From assembly GCA_016744535.1 (NCBI GenBank), contig JADGEE010000021.1:1-36450 (forward strand): DNA of 36,450 nucleotides, in the 5' to 3' direction. Both the position numbers and the translations under genes were made by a program. The first letter of the stretch is position 1, and each line of letters begins with the position of its first letter. This DNA is from Campylobacteraceae bacterium. GTDB lineage: Bacteria; Campylobacterota; Campylobacteria; Campylobacterales; BB28. The notes beneath the pieces were generated by a model that saw only the letters and a list, made by a program, of their open reading frames with translations, was not told the DNA's origin and did not search any database. Below, piece after piece: positions 818-8,242 of the stretch.

Positions 818-2809
818 TTAACTACTTGAAACCATTGCGTCAATTTGCATTTGAAGTGCACTAAAGCTTGAATTCATACTTGAAATCATTGAATCATAAG
901 CCGCAAATTTAGTTGACATAATTTCATATCTAATATCAAGCCGTTCTATTGCTTTATCTCTCTCTTCTTCTAGCCTCTTTTTATTACTTTTTAAATTTCC
1001 CTCATATAGTGATACACTTCCGTTATCTCCAATTAAACCATCTAACTCTTTATTCATCTTTGCAAATATTCCATCAAACTCAACATCACTACCTCTTACA
1101 GTTGAGGTATAGCCACGAAATAGTTTTTCTACAGCTTCTGAATCTTCACTTAATTTTGACTGTAGTTTTGTCTCATTAAATGTTAAAAGACCAGATTCAT
1201 TTAACTCAATTCCAACTTCTATTAAATTTTTAATATCTTGAGTAAAATCAGAAGTTAATAAAATTCTATTAAGAGAACTCTTTATTCTTGAAATACTACT
1301 TTCACCCTGAAAAGCTCCTGCTTCACCTGTCTCATCATTATAATCGGTAACTTCAGTCAATTTGTTTAACACTTGATTGTAAGCTGCTACCATCTCTCTT
1401 ACAGAATCAACCATTCCACCATCATCTCTTTTAATTTTAATAGTTGAATTTTCTCCACTATCATCAACTTTTTGTAACTCTAGTGTTAAACCAACTACTA
1501 AATCATCAACGGTATTTGTACTTCTAGTAATATCTACTCCATTAAAAGTAAAGTTTGCATTTTGAGATATTTGAAGCATATTAATTCCAAGTGCATCTAT
1601 AATAGTTTTTGTCTTATCATCTTCATTATCTGAAACTGTTGAAACTTCAGAACCTCCAACATCTACAGTGAAACCTAAACTTTCCCAGTCAGCACCATCA
1701 TTTAAATCTTCAATATCTATAGCACTTCCATCTAAACTTTTAAGAGATAAGTATCCATTGTTATTATAAGCTCTAACATTAGTATCATCAGCTTTTTTAT
1801 TTATAGCATTTACTAAATCGTCAAGAGTATCATAGCTCTCGTCACTATCTACAATATCAATTCCATTTATACTCATTCCAGCTTTTAAATCATTTGGCAT
1901 AGCAGAACCAATTAAATTATCTTCACTATCAGTTGAAACTTCAACACCTCCAACATCTACAGTAAAACCCAAACTTTGCCAATCAGCACCATCATTTAAA
2001 TCTTCAATATCTATGGCACTTCCATTAATAGCTGTAAGTTTAATTTGACCATTGCTATTATATGCCTGAACATTAGTATCATCTGTTTTTTCATTAATGG
2101 CAGAAATTAAATTATCAATAGAATCATAACTAGTATCATTATCAACAATATCAATTCCGTTTATACTCATTCCTGTTTTTAAATTATTAAAAGTAGAGGT
2201 AGCTTCTAAGCTTTCACCAAAAGATATTTGATTATCATCACCTGTATCTTTTGACTTTAAAATTAATTTATATGGATTGTCACCACCTACATTCATAGTT
2301 GAAGCAGTAACTTTATCTCCTGCACTATCGTTTATTTTTGAAACTAAATCAGAAAGTGATATAGCCCCATCACCTAAACTAATTGAAACTTTTGAACTAC
2401 CTACATAAAAAGAGAAAGTAGAGTTACTTCCAGAGGCTAATACATTACTATCTAAATCAGAAAAAGTGTTAGATGATTCAAAAATACTCTGTTTTGCAAG
2501 TTGTTCTACACCTACATCTATATCTTGTATAGAGACACCAGAGCTTGTAGTTGCCGTTACACTATCTCCTACTACAGAGCTACTTCTTGATAGATAAGTT
2601 GTATCATCGCTTAGAGTTGAGGTTGATACTTTAAGTGTAGCTAACATAGTTGAAACCATACTAAGTTCAGATGTTTTACTTATATTATCTTCAATTTTTC
2701 TCTCGGTAGGTGCAACCATAATACTATTATCAGCCTCTTTTAAATTATCAATTACATCACTTGTTAAAGTCCCACTTCCAAGCCCTAATGAGGATATTGA
2801 ACCAGACAT
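818..2809 (-). CDS. fliD: flagellar filament cap protein FliD with an internal duplication
   Basis: FliD (HAP2) forms the cap at the filament tip under which exported flagellin folds. The N-terminus (ISSLGLGSGTLTSDVIDNLK) is the conserved FliD D0/D1 start, and the C-terminal region (about 405-663) carries the FliD_C pattern, including GLLTFNETKLQSKLSEDSE and a terminal coiled coil. At 663 residues it is longer than many FliD proteins. Part of the extra length is a tandem duplication: residues 210-298 and 308-396 align at a constant 98-residue offset and share GMSINGIDIV, DDTNV.AY and SAIDIEDLNDGADW. Each copy resembles a flagellin hook_IN module. The gene begins 14 bases after flaG with an AAGGAT ribosome site. 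The function is secure; what the duplication does is unknown. Confidence 0.96.
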   Translation of the reverse strand: MSGSISSLGLGSGTLTSDVIDNLKEADNSIMVAPTERKIEDNISKTSELSMVSTMLATLKVSTSTLSDDTTYLSRSSSVVGDSVTATTSSGVSIQDIDVGVEQLAKQSIFESSNTFSDLDSNVLASGSNSTFSFYVGSSKVSISLGDGAISLSDLVSKINDSAGDKVTASTMNVGGDNPYKLILKSKDTGDDNQISFGESLEATSTFNNLKTGMSINGIDIVDNDTSYDSIDNLISAINEKTDDTNVQAYNSNGQIKLTAINGSAIDIEDLNDGADWQSLGFTVDVGGVEVSTDSEDNLIGSAMPNDLKAGMSINGIDIVDSDESYDTLDDLVNAINKKADDTNVRAYNNNGYLSLKSLDGSAIDIEDLNDGADWESLGFTVDVGGSEVSTVSDNEDDKTKTIIDALGINMLQISQNANFTFNGVDITRSTNTVDDLVVGLTLELQKVDDSGENSTIKIKRDDGGMVDSVREMVAAYNQVLNKLTEVTDYNDETGEAGAFQGESSISRIKSSLNRILLTSDFTQDIKNLIEVGIELNESGLLTFNETKLQSKLSEDSEAVEKLFRGYTSTVRGSDVEFDGIFAKMNKELDGLIGDNGSVSLYEGNLKSNKKRLEEERDKAIERLDIRYEIMSTKFAAYDSMISSMNSSFSALQMQIDAMVSSS
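1622..2182 (-). repeat. tandem ~98-codon duplication inside fliD
   Basis: Two copies (1916-2182 and 1622-1888 on the plus-strand numbering) lie head to tail with a 294-base period and encode the hook_IN-like modules of FliD. Long nearly identical DNA blocks remain, for example the bases encoding SAIDIEDLNDGADW at about 1676-1727 and 1970-2021. That suggests a recent duplication or continuing gene conversion. Confidence 0.9.
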
Positions 2810-3428: not shown

Positions 3429-3477
3429 AAATAGTAATTAAAGAAGTTTTGTAGTTTTCTATTTTATAATTCAAGAG

Positions 3478-3507
3478 AAAAAACTTTAGTTTAATATTTA
3501 AACTAAA
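3478..3507 (-). terminator. probable terminator overlapping the stop of the flagellin-like gene
   Basis: A perfect 9-bp inverted repeat (TTTAGTTTA, 5-base loop, TAAACTAAA) on the minus strand is followed at once by six Ts. The stem includes the stop codon of the flagellin-like gene. The stem is AT-only, so it is weak thermodynamically, but the layout is that of an intrinsic terminator separating this gene from flaG. Confidence 0.55.
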
Positions 3508-5654
3508 ATAAGTTGCATTAACTTAGTCTCCAATTCCATTTGGATTCTATGTGAATAGTTACTTCCTATTGCAGGTATTAATGCATCTCTATTATTTATC
3601 TCTTTTGATAATCCAATGAAACTATCTACTCTAAAATTTTCCATTCTTAAACCATTTACAAACTCTTTTGCAGAATCCAAACCACTTTGAATAGTAGAAT
3701 CTATAATTTCCAAGCTACTATTAATTTTATTGAAGTTGTTAGTTGTAGTTTCTAAAATATTTGTTACTACATCTTTTGATAAATTCCCTAAACTTACATT
3801 TGTATTCTCATAATCACTTTTGATATGTTTATTTGCAAAGAGTCCTAATGCCTCCGCCTCTTCTGAATTAAAACCTGTTGTTAAGTTTTGTAAATTTACA
3901 ATAGCACTAGAGTTATTTATTGCAGCATCTCTAAATAGATATGAACCTTTTACATCTATGTTTATATTACTACCATCGCTTACACTAGTTGTAAGTTTTC
4001 CATAATTTTCAAAAGCTTCAACAAAAAGATCTTCTGCTTCAAAATAGTTATTAAAAGTGTCATTTTCACTTGAATAATTATTTAAAATTTTATCAACTTC
4101 ATCACCTGAGCTAAAATTATAAGTTAAATTAAAATCACTTCCATCTGCTTTCTCTAATTTAACTTCTCCTGATATTTCATCTTTTAAAGCACTAACACCA
4201 GTTAAATCACTCTTTTCATTTATTTTAGTAATTAAGTCATCAATACTTATTGCACCACTTGGTGCATCAGAATTTCCAGTCCATAAAATAGTATTTGCAT
4301 CTACTATTGAAACACTCTCATCTATATTATCAATTGAACTAATTTCAAGCTTATCTATTACACCACTTTTAATCAAAGATATAGAATCTGTAACTTCACT
4401 TTGAATGAAACCTAAATTTTTGGCATCACTTATAGATTTAAACTCTATGTTTATAGTTGAATTATCAATATCATCACTATTTTTTGAATTAAAGGTTAAT
4501 TTTCCATCATTAATTTCTGCTTTAACCCCAGTCTCATCATATTTAGAATTAACTAATTCTACAAATTTACTAATACTTGGAGTTTCATTATTTATAACTA
4601 CTCCATTTATTTTAATTCCATTTGATAAATCTTCACTTCCAACTCCATAACTAGTTTCAAGTTTTACCTCTACTGGTAAATTTTCGTGAATATTTGTTAC
4701 AGTTGAAAGCCCGCTATCAGCCTCAACTTTTACTCCCCTTCCATCAATTGATTCTAAATTCAACCTTCCACTCTCATCCACATTAGCCATAACCCCTGTT
4801 TTAGTCGAGAAGCTATTTATAGTTTCTACTAAATTATTATTACCATCTTCTGCTTGTACAGTAATTGAACCAATTGATATATCATTAATTTTTAAATTTT
4901 CAACATTTCCAGCTTCAATTGCTTTAAAGCCTGTTGAAGCTATTTGATAACTAGCTTTAATCCCTGTTAAATCACTACTTTTATTAATTAAATCAACTAG
5001 AGTTCCTAACCCTTCTCCCTCTTTATATCCAATAGTAACATTTGTAAGTGCTAACTCTTTATCTTTATTTGAAATATTTATTGAAATATTTCCACCCTCT
5101 TCTATTGTTTTAGTAGTTTCGTATCTCATACTACCTAAATCAGCACTTCTCGTAGAGTTTAAACTAACTTCTACAAAATTACTACTGTTTAAAGAAGACA
5201 TAATCTTTTGATTTTGAAAATTTCCATTTAAAAGTTTTCTATTATTAAATTTACTATTATTTGCTAAAAAATCCATACTAGAAATTAATTCACTAATATT
5301 TTCTTGTATTAATTCGTTACTCTCACTATTAAAGAGTGTATCTGTTTTATCTTTTATTGAATTGAGTAACTCTTCTTGTTTTGATAGTGTATATTTTACG
5401 GCCTCTGTAAATCCAGCAGATTTATTTATATTTTTAATCAAATTACTAAAGTTACTAATTTGACTTTCTATTTCGTTACTCTCCTTTTTAAAAGAGTTAA
5501 TTTCCAATAAATCATCTTTGTTTATATATACTTCATTTGGCATAAACTTGTTATTAACACTCAAGTAATTATTAGTAAAACGGTTAGTTTGCTTATTACT
5601 AGAATTATCAAACATTGACTGAAAATAGTTTAACCCTGCATCTAAAAACTCCAT
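3498..5654 (-). CDS. large divergent flagellin/FlgL-family protein
   Basis: This 718-residue protein is related to Campylobacterota flagellins. Residues about 60-145 match the D1 helices, ending in FLANNSKFNNRKLLNGNF. Residues 168-180 (TRSADLGSMRYET) match the flagellin turn written SxKIGxxRFET in Campylobacter. Then come several hook_IN-type modules (about 215-245, 250-307, 345-400, 465-505), including DESGRLNLESIDGRG. The ends are unusual: the N-terminus (MEFLDAGLNYFQSMFDN) lacks the usual flagellin start, and the last 100 residues only vaguely resemble D1/D0. Ordinary flagellins of related genera are much shorter. A good Shine-Dalgarno site (AAGGAGG) supports the start. It could be a minor filament component, a junction protein or a sheath-like protein; I cannot choose. 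Confidence 0.85.
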   Translation of the reverse strand: MEFLDAGLNYFQSMFDNSSNKQTNRFTNNYLSVNNKFMPNEVYINKDDLLEINSFKKESNEIESQISNFSNLIKNINKSAGFTEAVKYTLSKQEELLNSIKDKTDTLFNSESNELIQENISELISSMDFLANNSKFNNRKLLNGNFQNQKIMSSLNSSNFVEVSLNSTRSADLGSMRYETTKTIEEGGNISINISNKDKELALTNVTIGYKEGEGLGTLVDLINKSSDLTGIKASYQIASTGFKAIEAGNVENLKINDISIGSITVQAEDGNNNLVETINSFSTKTGVMANVDESGRLNLESIDGRGVKVEADSGLSTVTNIHENLPVEVKLETSYGVGSEDLSNGIKINGVVINNETPSISKFVELVNSKYDETGVKAEINDGKLTFNSKNSDDIDNSTINIEFKSISDAKNLGFIQSEVTDSISLIKSGVIDKLEISSIDNIDESVSIVDANTILWTGNSDAPSGAISIDDLITKINEKSDLTGVSALKDEISGEVKLEKADGSDFNLTYNFSSGDEVDKILNNYSSENDTFNNYFEAEDLFVEAFENYGKLTTSVSDGSNINIDVKGSYLFRDAAINNSSAIVNLQNLTTGFNSEEAEALGLFANKHIKSDYENTNVSLGNLSKDVVTNILETTTNNFNKINSSLEIIDSTIQSGLDSAKEFVNGLRMENFRVDSFIGLSKEINNRDALIPAIGSNYSHRIQMELETKLMQLILV

Positions 5655-5698
5655 TGTCTCCTCCTTGAAACATCAAAATTAAATAGCACTTTAAGGTT

Positions 5699-5704
5699 AT
5701 TCTA
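5699..5704 (-). promoter_or_regulatory. candidate sigma-70 extended -10 before the flagellin-like gene
   Basis: Minus-strand TGTGCTAGAAT has an extended TG and a TAGAAT -10 box, and lies about 45 bases upstream of the start codon with T-rich DNA before it. No sigma-54 (GG-N10-GC) or CCGAT-type element was seen in the 85-base gap, so this gene may be regulated differently from flaG-fliD-fliS. Confidence 0.35.
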
Positions 5705-5739: not shown

Positions 5740-6393
5740 TTAGGGAGGAGTAATTATAACTTCTTTATCTGTCCAAATATAGTAACCGTAATGTTTATGT
5801 TTATGTTTATCTTCAAACATAATCTCTTTTGAAGTGTGAAATCCTAAATCATTTATTAAATCACTTATTTTTTTATTTTCTGATAAAAAATTCATAAAAT
5901 ATTTTGATGCATCTCTTGAAATTATTATATATCCTGTTGGAAAATAGTCATAAATATTAGGATTTTTAAATTCAAGATACCTAGCACAATTATTTAAACC
6001 ATCTCCTATAAAATTTTGATGATTTAAAATATCTGAAAATGGCATAAGATAACCAGTATGAACAGCTATCTTTATACCTTTAAAATAATTTATTTTTTTA
6101 TGAATACTATTAGATATATTTTTTAGTGATAGTGCAAAAATAACTCCATAACCTTTTAATCTAGGAGCTAAAATTACAAAAAAACCATCTCCAGTTGCAA
6201 TGAAACCAAGTATTGCTTCACTATTTGGAATTTTTGATTTTGATAACATCAAATTTATAGCTCTTTTAAAGAATTTAGTCATCAAATCAACTACATCAAA
6301 TTGTTGCATATTATTTAATTTAGAATAGTCTATAATATCAATTAAAATAATATCTGTAAAAATTAAATGTTTTTTACTATTAATATTTTTCAT
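5740..6393 (-). CDS. class III nucleotidyl cyclase-like protein
   Basis: The 217-residue protein shows the order of motifs of the adenylate/guanylate cyclase catalytic domain. These are DIIDYSKL (19-26, first metal Asp), ATGDGFFVIL (66-75, second metal Asp69), IKIAVHTGY (107-115) and IGDGLNNCARYLEF (129-142), where Asn134 and Arg138 sit at the N-x3-R spacing of the transition-state residues. The Lys that usually reads adenine, three residues before GD, is Ile65 or Ala66 here, so the substrate is uncertain and it may be a divergent or inactive homologue. There is no signal peptide or membrane segment and no extra sensor domain. It lies just upstream of the flagellin-like gene on the same strand and is divergent from the RluA gene. 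No clear Shine-Dalgarno site precedes the ATG. Confidence 0.72.
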   Translation of the reverse strand: MKNINSKKHLIFTDIILIDIIDYSKLNNMQQFDVVDLMTKFFKRAINLMLSKSKIPNSEAILGFIATGDGFFVILAPRLKGYGVIFALSLKNISNSIHKKINYFKGIKIAVHTGYLMPFSDILNHQNFIGDGLNNCARYLEFKNPNIYDYFPTGYIIISRDASKYFMNFLSENKKISDLINDLGFHTSKEIMFEDKHKHKHYGYYIWTDKEVIITPP

Positions 6394-7333: not shown

Positions 7334-7528
7334 ATGGATATGATTTATAATGTTTTTATAAGTTAATGAGTTAATAGAGTATAAAAAGAGTAATGATTTT
7401 GAAAGATTTAAAAATAATTCAAAATTAGAAAAAAGATTTATCCAAATGGACATCTATATTTAGATAGGTTAAGAGAAAATTTAAAATTGATAGAGAGTGA
7501 ATTAACCAATGCGACTAAAAAAAATTGA
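7334..7528 (+). pseudogene. frameshifted relict of a ~64-codon gene
   Basis: After a strong ribosome site (GGGAGG) an ATG at 7334 opens MDMIYNVFI and then hits a stop at 7364. Moving one base over at about 7362 continues as VNELIEYKKSNDFERFKNN. Moving back near 7445 gives PNGHLYLDRLRENLKLIESE and a TGA at 7526-7528 that overlaps the mntA start. The pieces join into one helical, charged small protein with two compensating frameshifts. I do not recognise the family. Its tight coupling to the toxin-antitoxin pair suggests it was once the first gene of that operon. Sequencing error or chance open frames in AT-rich DNA are the alternatives. Confidence 0.5.
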
Positions 7529-7805
7529 AATAAAAACTATTAAAAAATCTTTTATAGAAACTTTTAAAAGTGGTGAAATATATCTTTTCGGTAGTAGGAT
7601 AGATTATGATAAAAGAGGTGGAGATATTGACCTCTATATAATTCCTGATACAAATATAAATTTAACTAAAAAGAAAATAGACTTTTTAGTAAGTTTAAAA
7701 AAAATTTTAGGTGAACAGAAAATTGATGTTGTGATAGATAGAGGAAAAGATAGAGTTATAGATAAAATCGCTAAAAGTGAAGGGATACTACTATGCAAGA
7801 GTTAA
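7509..7805 (+). CDS. mntA: minimal nucleotidyltransferase antitoxin, MntA type
   Basis: The 98-residue protein is a minimal nucleotidyltransferase of the polymerase-beta superfamily. It has LFGSR (26-30), then DID (39-41), and a third acidic residue at Asp73 in KIDVVID. This is the GS-x9-DxD form of the motif. In the characterised MntA-HepT system the MNT protein neutralises its HEPN partner by adding AMP to a tyrosine of the RX4HXY motif. Here the gene overlaps the HEPN gene by 13 bases, which supports coupled translation. The start ATG overlaps the stop of the relict ORF upstream. Family and partner are clear from sequence; the chemistry is by analogy. Confidence 0.88.
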   Translation: MRLKKIEIKTIKKSFIETFKSGEIYLFGSRIDYDKRGGDIDLYIIPDTNINLTKKKIDFLVSLKKILGEQKIDVVIDRGKDRVIDKIAKSEGILLCKS

Positions 7806-8242
7806 AAGAGATATTTATCTCTATTGATAAATTGATAGAGAGTTGTAATATTGATTATAGAGAGTTAAAGTCAAAAAATATAGATGAAAATTTTTTTGAA
7901 GATTACTCAAATCAAAGATTACTAAATAGCTTTTTGTTTAATTTTATTAAAATTCAAGATAAAGTTGGTGCTAAACTCTTTAAAAAAGTTTTGATTGAAT
8001 TAAAAGAGATAGATAGCCAAAGTGTTCCTATGAGAGATGTTTTAAATATTTTAGAGAAATTAGAAATTATAAAAAGTGTTGATGATTGGGATAGATTGCG
8101 AGAGATAAGAAACTCTTTAACTCACGAATACCCATTAAATATAGAAGAGAGAGTTGAAAATATAGAATTAACACTAAATGGATATGAGATATTAAAAAAT
8201 ATATATTTTTTAATTAAAAATTACTTCATAAAGAGAAATTAG
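7793..8242 (+). CDS. hepT: HEPN-family toxin, HepT type
   Basis: The 149-residue all-helical protein carries REIRNSLTHEYP, in which Arg106, His111 and Tyr113 form the RX4HXY motif of HepT-type HEPN ribonucleases. A second conserved-looking stretch, LLNSFLFNFIKIQDKVG, lies at about 43-59, as in related HEPN proteins. HepT proteins are RNases (tRNA has been reported as the target in one system) held inactive by MntA. The start overlaps mntA by 13 bases. All motif residues needed for activity are present, so the toxin is probably functional and still controlled. The pair could act in stress response, phage defence or simple maintenance; nothing nearby decides between them. Confidence 0.88.
   Translation: MQELKEIFISIDKLIESCNIDYRELKSKNIDENFFEDYSNQRLLNSFLFNFIKIQDKVGAKLFKKVLIELKEIDSQSVPMRDVLNILEKLEIIKSVDDWDRLREIRNSLTHEYPLNIEERVENIELTLNGYEILKNIYFLIKNYFIKRN

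Follow-up and report, generated by a model that had tools for sequence, protein, structure and literature searches.

The window, a stretch of 36,450 bases that makes up one whole contig of a 3.02-Mb, 174-contig assembly (G000), carries on its minus strand an intact reading frame for a 718-residue relative of flagellin (Table 1). Adjoining this gene in G000 are three that Pfam identifies as flaG, fliD, and fliS, in agreement with the preliminary description of the locus. In another genome belonging to the genus (G001), a full-length ortholog adjoins genes that were named by eye as uppS-like and nuo-like; the fliD-fliS locus of that genome, its genes likewise named by eye, is adjoined by neither the ortholog nor a flaG. 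The flaG-fliD-fliS neighborhood of the gene in the window is therefore not a conserved link.

Table 1. Gene, flanking signals, and regions of the 718-residue protein, with positions in the window
Feature	Position	Strand	Evidence
Gene for 718-residue flagellin relative	3498..5654	-	Intact ORF, ATG start; full-length ortholog in G001
AGGAGG ribosome-binding site	5660..5665	-	Read from sequence
TAGAAT, possible -10 element	5699..5704	-	By eye; no support from consensus scan
Hairpin and U-run across stop codon, likely terminator	3477..3509	-	Hairpin shuffle test
Residues 1-58: N-terminal tail at place of D0, putative export signal, least conserved part	5481..5654	-	Pfam, ortholog comparison
Residues 59-180: flagellin-like turn and N-terminal helices of D1	5115..5480	-	Pfam, solved relatives, profile-profile
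Residues 181-320: outer domain common to related flagellins, Flagellin_IN modules 1 and 2	4695..5114	-	Solved relatives, profile-profile, Pfam
Residues 321-540: ~220 additional residues, for the most part unmatched in ordinary flagellins, weak Flagellin_IN modules 3 and 4	4035..4694	-	Alignment, Pfam
Residues 541-625: outer domain, second half; FENYGKLT aligns with flagellin ENYGRLT	3780..4034	-	Alignment, 398-genome search
Residues 626-675: C-terminal helix of D1, with weak likeness to flagellin	3630..3779	-	398-genome search, ungapped comparison
Residues 676-718: C-terminal tail at place of D0, kept in ortholog, D0 not recognizable	3501..3629	-	Pfam, profile, codon comparison

The hairpin at the gene end (12 bp, A-U-rich, -7.5 kcal/mol) was equaled by 2 of 200 shuffles and, with its U-run, supports the terminator suggested earlier as a likely one; a terminator scan demanding G-C pairs found none. 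Cotranscription with flaG-fliD-fliS was considered and thought unlikely, given this hairpin, a YCGATT box before flaG, and the other neighbors in G001. The sigma-70-type promoter that had also been proposed was not supported by a consensus scan. The region held 11 promoter-like sites, shuffled sequences held 16.9, and upstream of the start a single minus-strand site turned up, at 5803-5776, inside the next gene.

Neither a sigma-54-type box nor a YCGATT box was found in the 120 bases that precede the start codon, and the G001 ortholog had neither. Among 14 ordinary flagellin genes of the two genomes (the L077 gene, described below, was excluded), eight carried the sigma-54-type box, located between -58 and -72, compared with 8 of 120 other genes. 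The letters of that pattern were drawn after the upstream regions had been viewed, and an earlier scan with the textbook pattern, in which as many as two mismatches were allowed, had given the same eight genes. The YCGATT box was found at the flagellin genes C85c and C92, at flaG, at the G001 fliD, and at 3 of 120 other genes. Six of the 14 ordinary flagellin genes thus lack the sigma-54-type box too, and four of them (C85b, C6, C5, and L079), together with a FlaC-like gene of G000, have neither box.

Several other observations were made at the locus. FliD (818-2809, minus strand) contains a tandem duplication, in frame and of 294-nt period, the copies of which (1638-1894 and 1932-2188) are 81% identical; the duplication amounts to one extra module, and FliD is 663 aa long here versus a 567-aa ORF in G001. 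A 217-aa protein encoded at 5740-6393 (minus strand) had no Pfam or NCBIfam match and only weak PHROGs matches; on visual inspection its sequence looks like a nucleotidyl cyclase domain in degenerate form. At 7509-8242 (plus strand), a 149-aa ORF with weak, below-cutoff HEPN-type and nucleotidyltransferase-substrate matches is preceded by a 98-aa ORF that looks nucleotidyltransferase-like by eye. A match to Bac_DnaA_C (PF08299) was found in G000 and none in G001, which is 88% complete. Thiovulum had come into consideration as the source genus on account of the many flagellins; PF00308 and PF08299, both DnaA domains, are listed among the markers absent from all six Thiovulum genomes (PMC9938260), and the match in G000 thus speaks against that genus, though not decisively.

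The flagellin body and its outer domain

The protein has a clear flagellin D1/D2 core at approximately residues 59 to 320, and the D1 core claimed for it at the outset was borne out by relatives of solved structure and by a profile-profile match. The best solved relative, 6x80, which is Flagellin A from Campylobacter jejuni, aligned with residues 60 to 318 at an E value of 9e-38. Two further relatives, 9ygu and 9yh1, the Helicobacter pylori flagellins FlaA and FlaB (PMC12880188), aligned with residues 27 to 314 and 58 to 316, respectively. Weaker matches began as early as residue 24, and one of them, 6b5b (2e-8), extended to residue 434; among the 31 solved-structure matches listed, not one was best aligned within the final 280 residues. 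A profile-profile comparison, made with seven of the nine flagellins of G000, gave a match over residues 38 to 314 (E value of 6.8e-40), and all eight NCBIfam matches were to flagellin models, with scores far under the cutoffs. The sequence LGSMRYET aligned with the conserved turn of ordinary flagellins, as had been pointed out.

What had been described as about four hook_IN-like modules corresponds to four stretches matching the Pfam domain Flagellin_IN (1.8e-17). Excised and searched singly, two of the four exceeded the Pfam cutoff of 22.7 bits (33.5 and 35.4 bits) and the other two fell narrowly below it (19.7 and 22.1 bits). The likeness to H. pylori FlaA and FlaB and to 6x80 comprises D1, the first half of the outer domain, and the conserved turn, whereas the protein in the window differs from all three in having both D0 ends unrecognizable and approximately 220 additional outer-domain residues. 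Giant flagellins, reportedly described in PLoS One in 2018, are said to have an enlarged outer region and normal ends and to form thick filaments; the enlarged outer region is the point of likeness, and the ends, normal in theirs, are altered here.

An AlphaFold2 model built on the alignment of the family, which consists of two sequences, had a pLDDT of 35 and a pTM of 0.25. Its helices, placed with low confidence, follow a flagellin-like order (residues 2-20, 52-76, 84-109, 113-141, 627-689, and 694-717).

The two ends of the protein

The D0 domain of flagellin, formed by the two ends of the chain, builds the filament core. At the N terminus, the Pfam Flagellin_N match to the protein started at profile position 47 and scored 23 bits against a cutoff of 26.6; a six-frame search gave 26.8 bits, just above the cutoff, again from position 47, and the reported absence of a normal flagellin start accordingly stands. 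The start of the ortholog, MNISVNSGI, is near the flagellin start MGFRINTNI, with 1 of 131 unrelated controls as good over ten residues. For the first ten residues of the protein in the window the resemblance was fainter, being equaled by 9 of 131 controls, and over the N-terminal 14, 25, and 45 residues between 3 and 12 of the 131 controls equaled either family member. Residues 1 to 55 are the least conserved part of the family, with 14 of 49 aligned residues identical in the ortholog versus 303 of 626 in the remainder (binomial, 0.004). Export signals are often the least conserved parts of exported proteins, and this loosely conserved N terminus may still act as a flagellar type III export signal.

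The C terminus had been called barely like D0, and profile methods agree. Flagellin_C did not match the protein at an E value of 10 or less, while its cutoff was passed at 11 other places in G000, namely, nine flagellins, FlgL, and the short FlaC-like protein. A Pfam search with excised residues 620 to 718 gave no match, and a profile of the last 100 residues of both family members found nothing against a flagellin C-terminal profile (E value of 0.67). A more lenient test was an ungapped comparison with flagellin ends, anchored near the C terminus with an offset of 0 to 3 residues and set against 131 unrelated controls. Over the last 90 residues, both the protein in the window and its ortholog scored better than all 131 controls, the former at an offset of one residue and with 10 of 5,000 shuffles reaching its score. 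The trace was weaker over the last 28, 40, and 60 residues, for which 5, 2, and 4 controls and 158, 152, and 228 of 5,000 shuffles, respectively, were as good as the protein in the window and 5, 6, and 0 controls were as good as the ortholog. From the 90-residue trace it follows that the D1 C-terminal helix is probably present and that the chain ends within one residue of the flagellin end position; D0 proper is not recognizable, and the same trace suggests that a D0-like helix may remain.

Within its own family, the C-terminal tail is conserved as protein, since 16 of the last 29 residues (55%) are identical in the ortholog and the codons agree in 66% of first positions, 86% of second positions, and 45% of third positions. 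Both genomes share the tail motif RDALIPxIGxNY...LxTKxMxLxLV. The preliminary description of the ends as degenerate therefore holds insofar as both have changed from D0 and is too strong for the C terminus. Two other properties of the tail were set aside. Matches of the region to HA2 (E values of 0.083 and 0.088) were taken as chance helix matches. Tail hydrophobicity, at 0.23 and 0.21 in the family versus -0.04 to 0.01 in 13 of 14 flagellins, was not used as a distinguishing mark because the fourteenth flagellin, C5 (0.24), and the FlgL proteins (0.16 and 0.14) are similar to the family tails.

Ordinary flagellins, divergence, and distribution

G000 encodes nine other flagellins with recognizable D0, on contigs C85, C160, C128, C15, C92, C6, and C5 (L013-L019), as well as the 243-aa FlaC-like protein (L020:5686-6414). 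Three of the flagellin genes stand in tandem on C85, and the upstream boxes differ among the G000 genes. In five pairs of ordinary flagellins from G000 and G001, four of which (all but C85a/L074) are sisters in the tree, D0 was 71 to 92% identical at the N terminus and 88 to 93% identical at the C terminus and was among the most conserved regions, compared with 25 and 40% in the 718-residue family. The constraint on D0 thus appears, on this comparison of sequences, to be relaxed in the family. A sixth pair, C5 and the L077 gene, was 52% identical at the C terminus; its N terminus was unusable, the open frame of L077 having no normal start. This relative of C5 (G001:C38), the frame of which is without a normal N-terminal D0, may be truncated, frameshifted, or truly shorter.

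A tree built from 45 flagellin bodies placed the protein in the window and its ortholog alone on the longest branch, approximately 4.5 changes per site from the other flagellins. The program warned that the position of long rows is unsure and that the composition of the protein is unusual; the tree is read for divergence and not for ancestry.

The ortholog in G001 is 47% identical over its full length and has equally altered ends, so that the search for orthologs called for at the outset yielded one. By region, the identity over aligned residues was 29% (residues 1-55), 49% (56-180), 58% (181-320), 40% (321-540), 59% (541-625), 44% (626-675), and 42% (676-718). A search of 60 relatives recovered the family from G000 and G001 alone, and so did a search, with a 230-position model of the C-terminal region, of 398 genomes from the order, themselves an even sample of a larger group, in each of which up to seven candidates were scored. 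Matches at an E value of 0.01 or less occurred in 67 of the 398 genomes, the best apart from the two genes at 1.1e-8. Among the matches listed, none other than the two genes extended beyond model position 205, and these matches are therefore flagellin bodies and not tails. A scan of public species genomes with two short peptide patterns, which has a small reach, gave one confirmed relative, L073 on DZAZ01000018.1, a metagenome assembly labeled Helicobacter cetorum isolate SulCav_PC08_66_28_11; it is the G001 gene itself.

Other flagellin-like sequences came to light during these searches. L083, L086, L089, and L090 are flagellin genes with normal-looking ends in IMG/VR viral contigs, the first of them following an ORF that is terminase-like by eye; MAFFT misplaced the C-terminal ends of the viral-contig flagellins when they were added to the family alignment. 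A 1,865-base Campylobacter jejuni "plasmid" record, NZ_CP148207.1, contains a flagellin body and is perhaps a mislabeled chromosomal piece.

Judged by its sequence, the protein is a flagellin paralog, found so far in one genus, with ends that fall outside the D0 family. Neither a standard flagellin nor a full-length FlgL identity, the two outcomes that the preliminary description had named as counting against it, was found at this level, and a search of literature titles and abstract openings found no description of such a flagellin relative.

Possible roles

Our tentative preference is for a fast-evolving paralog that leaves the cell by flagellar type III export as a secreted or surface-located protein, and that is not an ordinary filament subunit; we consider this quite possible without regarding it as established. 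Without a normal D0, the protein would not be expected to stack, as ordinary subunits do, into the filament core; it would be passed out through the flagellum and would work outside the cell or at its surface by means of its enlarged outer domain. The strong D1/D2 homology, the unrecognizable D0, the presence of nine other flagellins in G000, the poor conservation of the N-terminal part, and, weakly, the missing sigma-54-type box are all consistent with secretion. Against it stand the ungapped 90-residue flagellin trace at the C terminus and the FlaC-like protein of G000, which keeps both Flagellin_N and Flagellin_C and so indicates that known non-filament relatives need not lose D0.

Secreted flagellin-like proteins provide partial parallels, and the occurrence of a flagellin core in a genome with separate filament flagellins is common ground with that type. 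In Vibrio, the flagellin-homologous proteins FlaE and FlaF are secreted, absent from the filament, and able to bind exopolysaccharide (PMC6692518). The likeness lies in extra flagellin-like genes beside a full filament set and in a proposed export without assembly; secretion and polysaccharide binding are properties shown for the Vibrio proteins (PMC6692518), to which the 718-residue protein, known from its sequence, is likened by description. C. jejuni FlaC is similarly described as secreted and as having no part in motility (PMC4863622), and here too the proposed likeness, a secreted flagellin-like protein without use in motility, is by description. The FlaC-like protein of G000, at 243 aa, differs from the 718-residue protein in keeping Flagellin_C.

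The chief rival to secretion, which we find rather doubtful, is a minor subunit with a special position in the filament and a D0 remodeled to fit one neighbor only; it may lie near the hook, under the FliD cap, or at scattered surface sites. Such a subunit would account for the C-terminal trace, which ends no more than one residue from the flagellin end, for the conservation of the tail at the protein level, and for the adjoining flaG-fliD-fliS genes in G000, whereas the ortholog is not next to fliD in G001 and D0 is among the most conserved regions of ordinary pairs. Helicobacter FlaB, a known hook-proximal minor flagellin, keeps D0 and D1 domains that are highly similar in structure to those of FlaA (PMC12880188), unlike the 718-residue protein.

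Other placements on the flagellum are less probable. It is unlikely that the protein, as an ordinary flagellin D1/D2 body on a rewritten C-terminal tail with a free N terminus, is an axial component joining or capping the filament through a new, non-D0 interface, a position held by no known flagellin or hook-associated protein. We think it quite improbable that it is a surface, scaffold, or cap-associated helper, held on the filament exterior by D1 contacts and acting through its IN-rich outer domain: in its favor, D1 has been kept while D0 has been lost and outer modules have been added, but D1/D2 is itself very divergent on its long branch.

That the protein is an additional component of the hook-filament junction, akin to FlgL or FlgK, was an idea of the earlier reader, to which the Flagellin_IN modules of the adjoining FliD lend some weight and which we consider highly improbable. 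FlgL (HAP3) is distant kin within the flagellin superfamily. Over the last 24 to 90 residues of the protein, 39 to 108 of 130 unrelated proteins scored as well against FlgL, and ordinary flagellins outscored it; its C terminus is thus unlike FlgL, and the junction idea is not supported. Both genomes, moreover, have an intact FlgL of their own, a complete FlgK occurs in G001 and a fragment of it at a contig end in G000 (model positions 1 to 115, 108 bits, below the full-model cutoff), and the NCBIfam matches of the protein are all to flagellin models. As improbable is a decaying duplicate, frameshift, or assembly artifact, which the low N-terminal identity and very long branch might suggest, because the reading frame is intact in both genomes with a ribosome-binding site in each, no normal flagellin ends were seen by eye when the other frames were read at both ends of the two genes, and codon position 2 is far better conserved than position 3 in the tail; frameshift or misassembly in particular was rejected in view of the full-length ortholog with equally altered ends and a conserved C-terminal tail.

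A flagellin relative that keeps D1, enlarges its outer domain, and drops D0 is a natural test of the need for D0 in export, in folding after export, and in assembly, and it stands in contrast to the ordinary flagellins of the same genus, which keep D0 nearly unchanged. If the preferred reading of a secreted or surface protein is true, this bacterium would have put another flagellin to a use other than motility, beside nine others.
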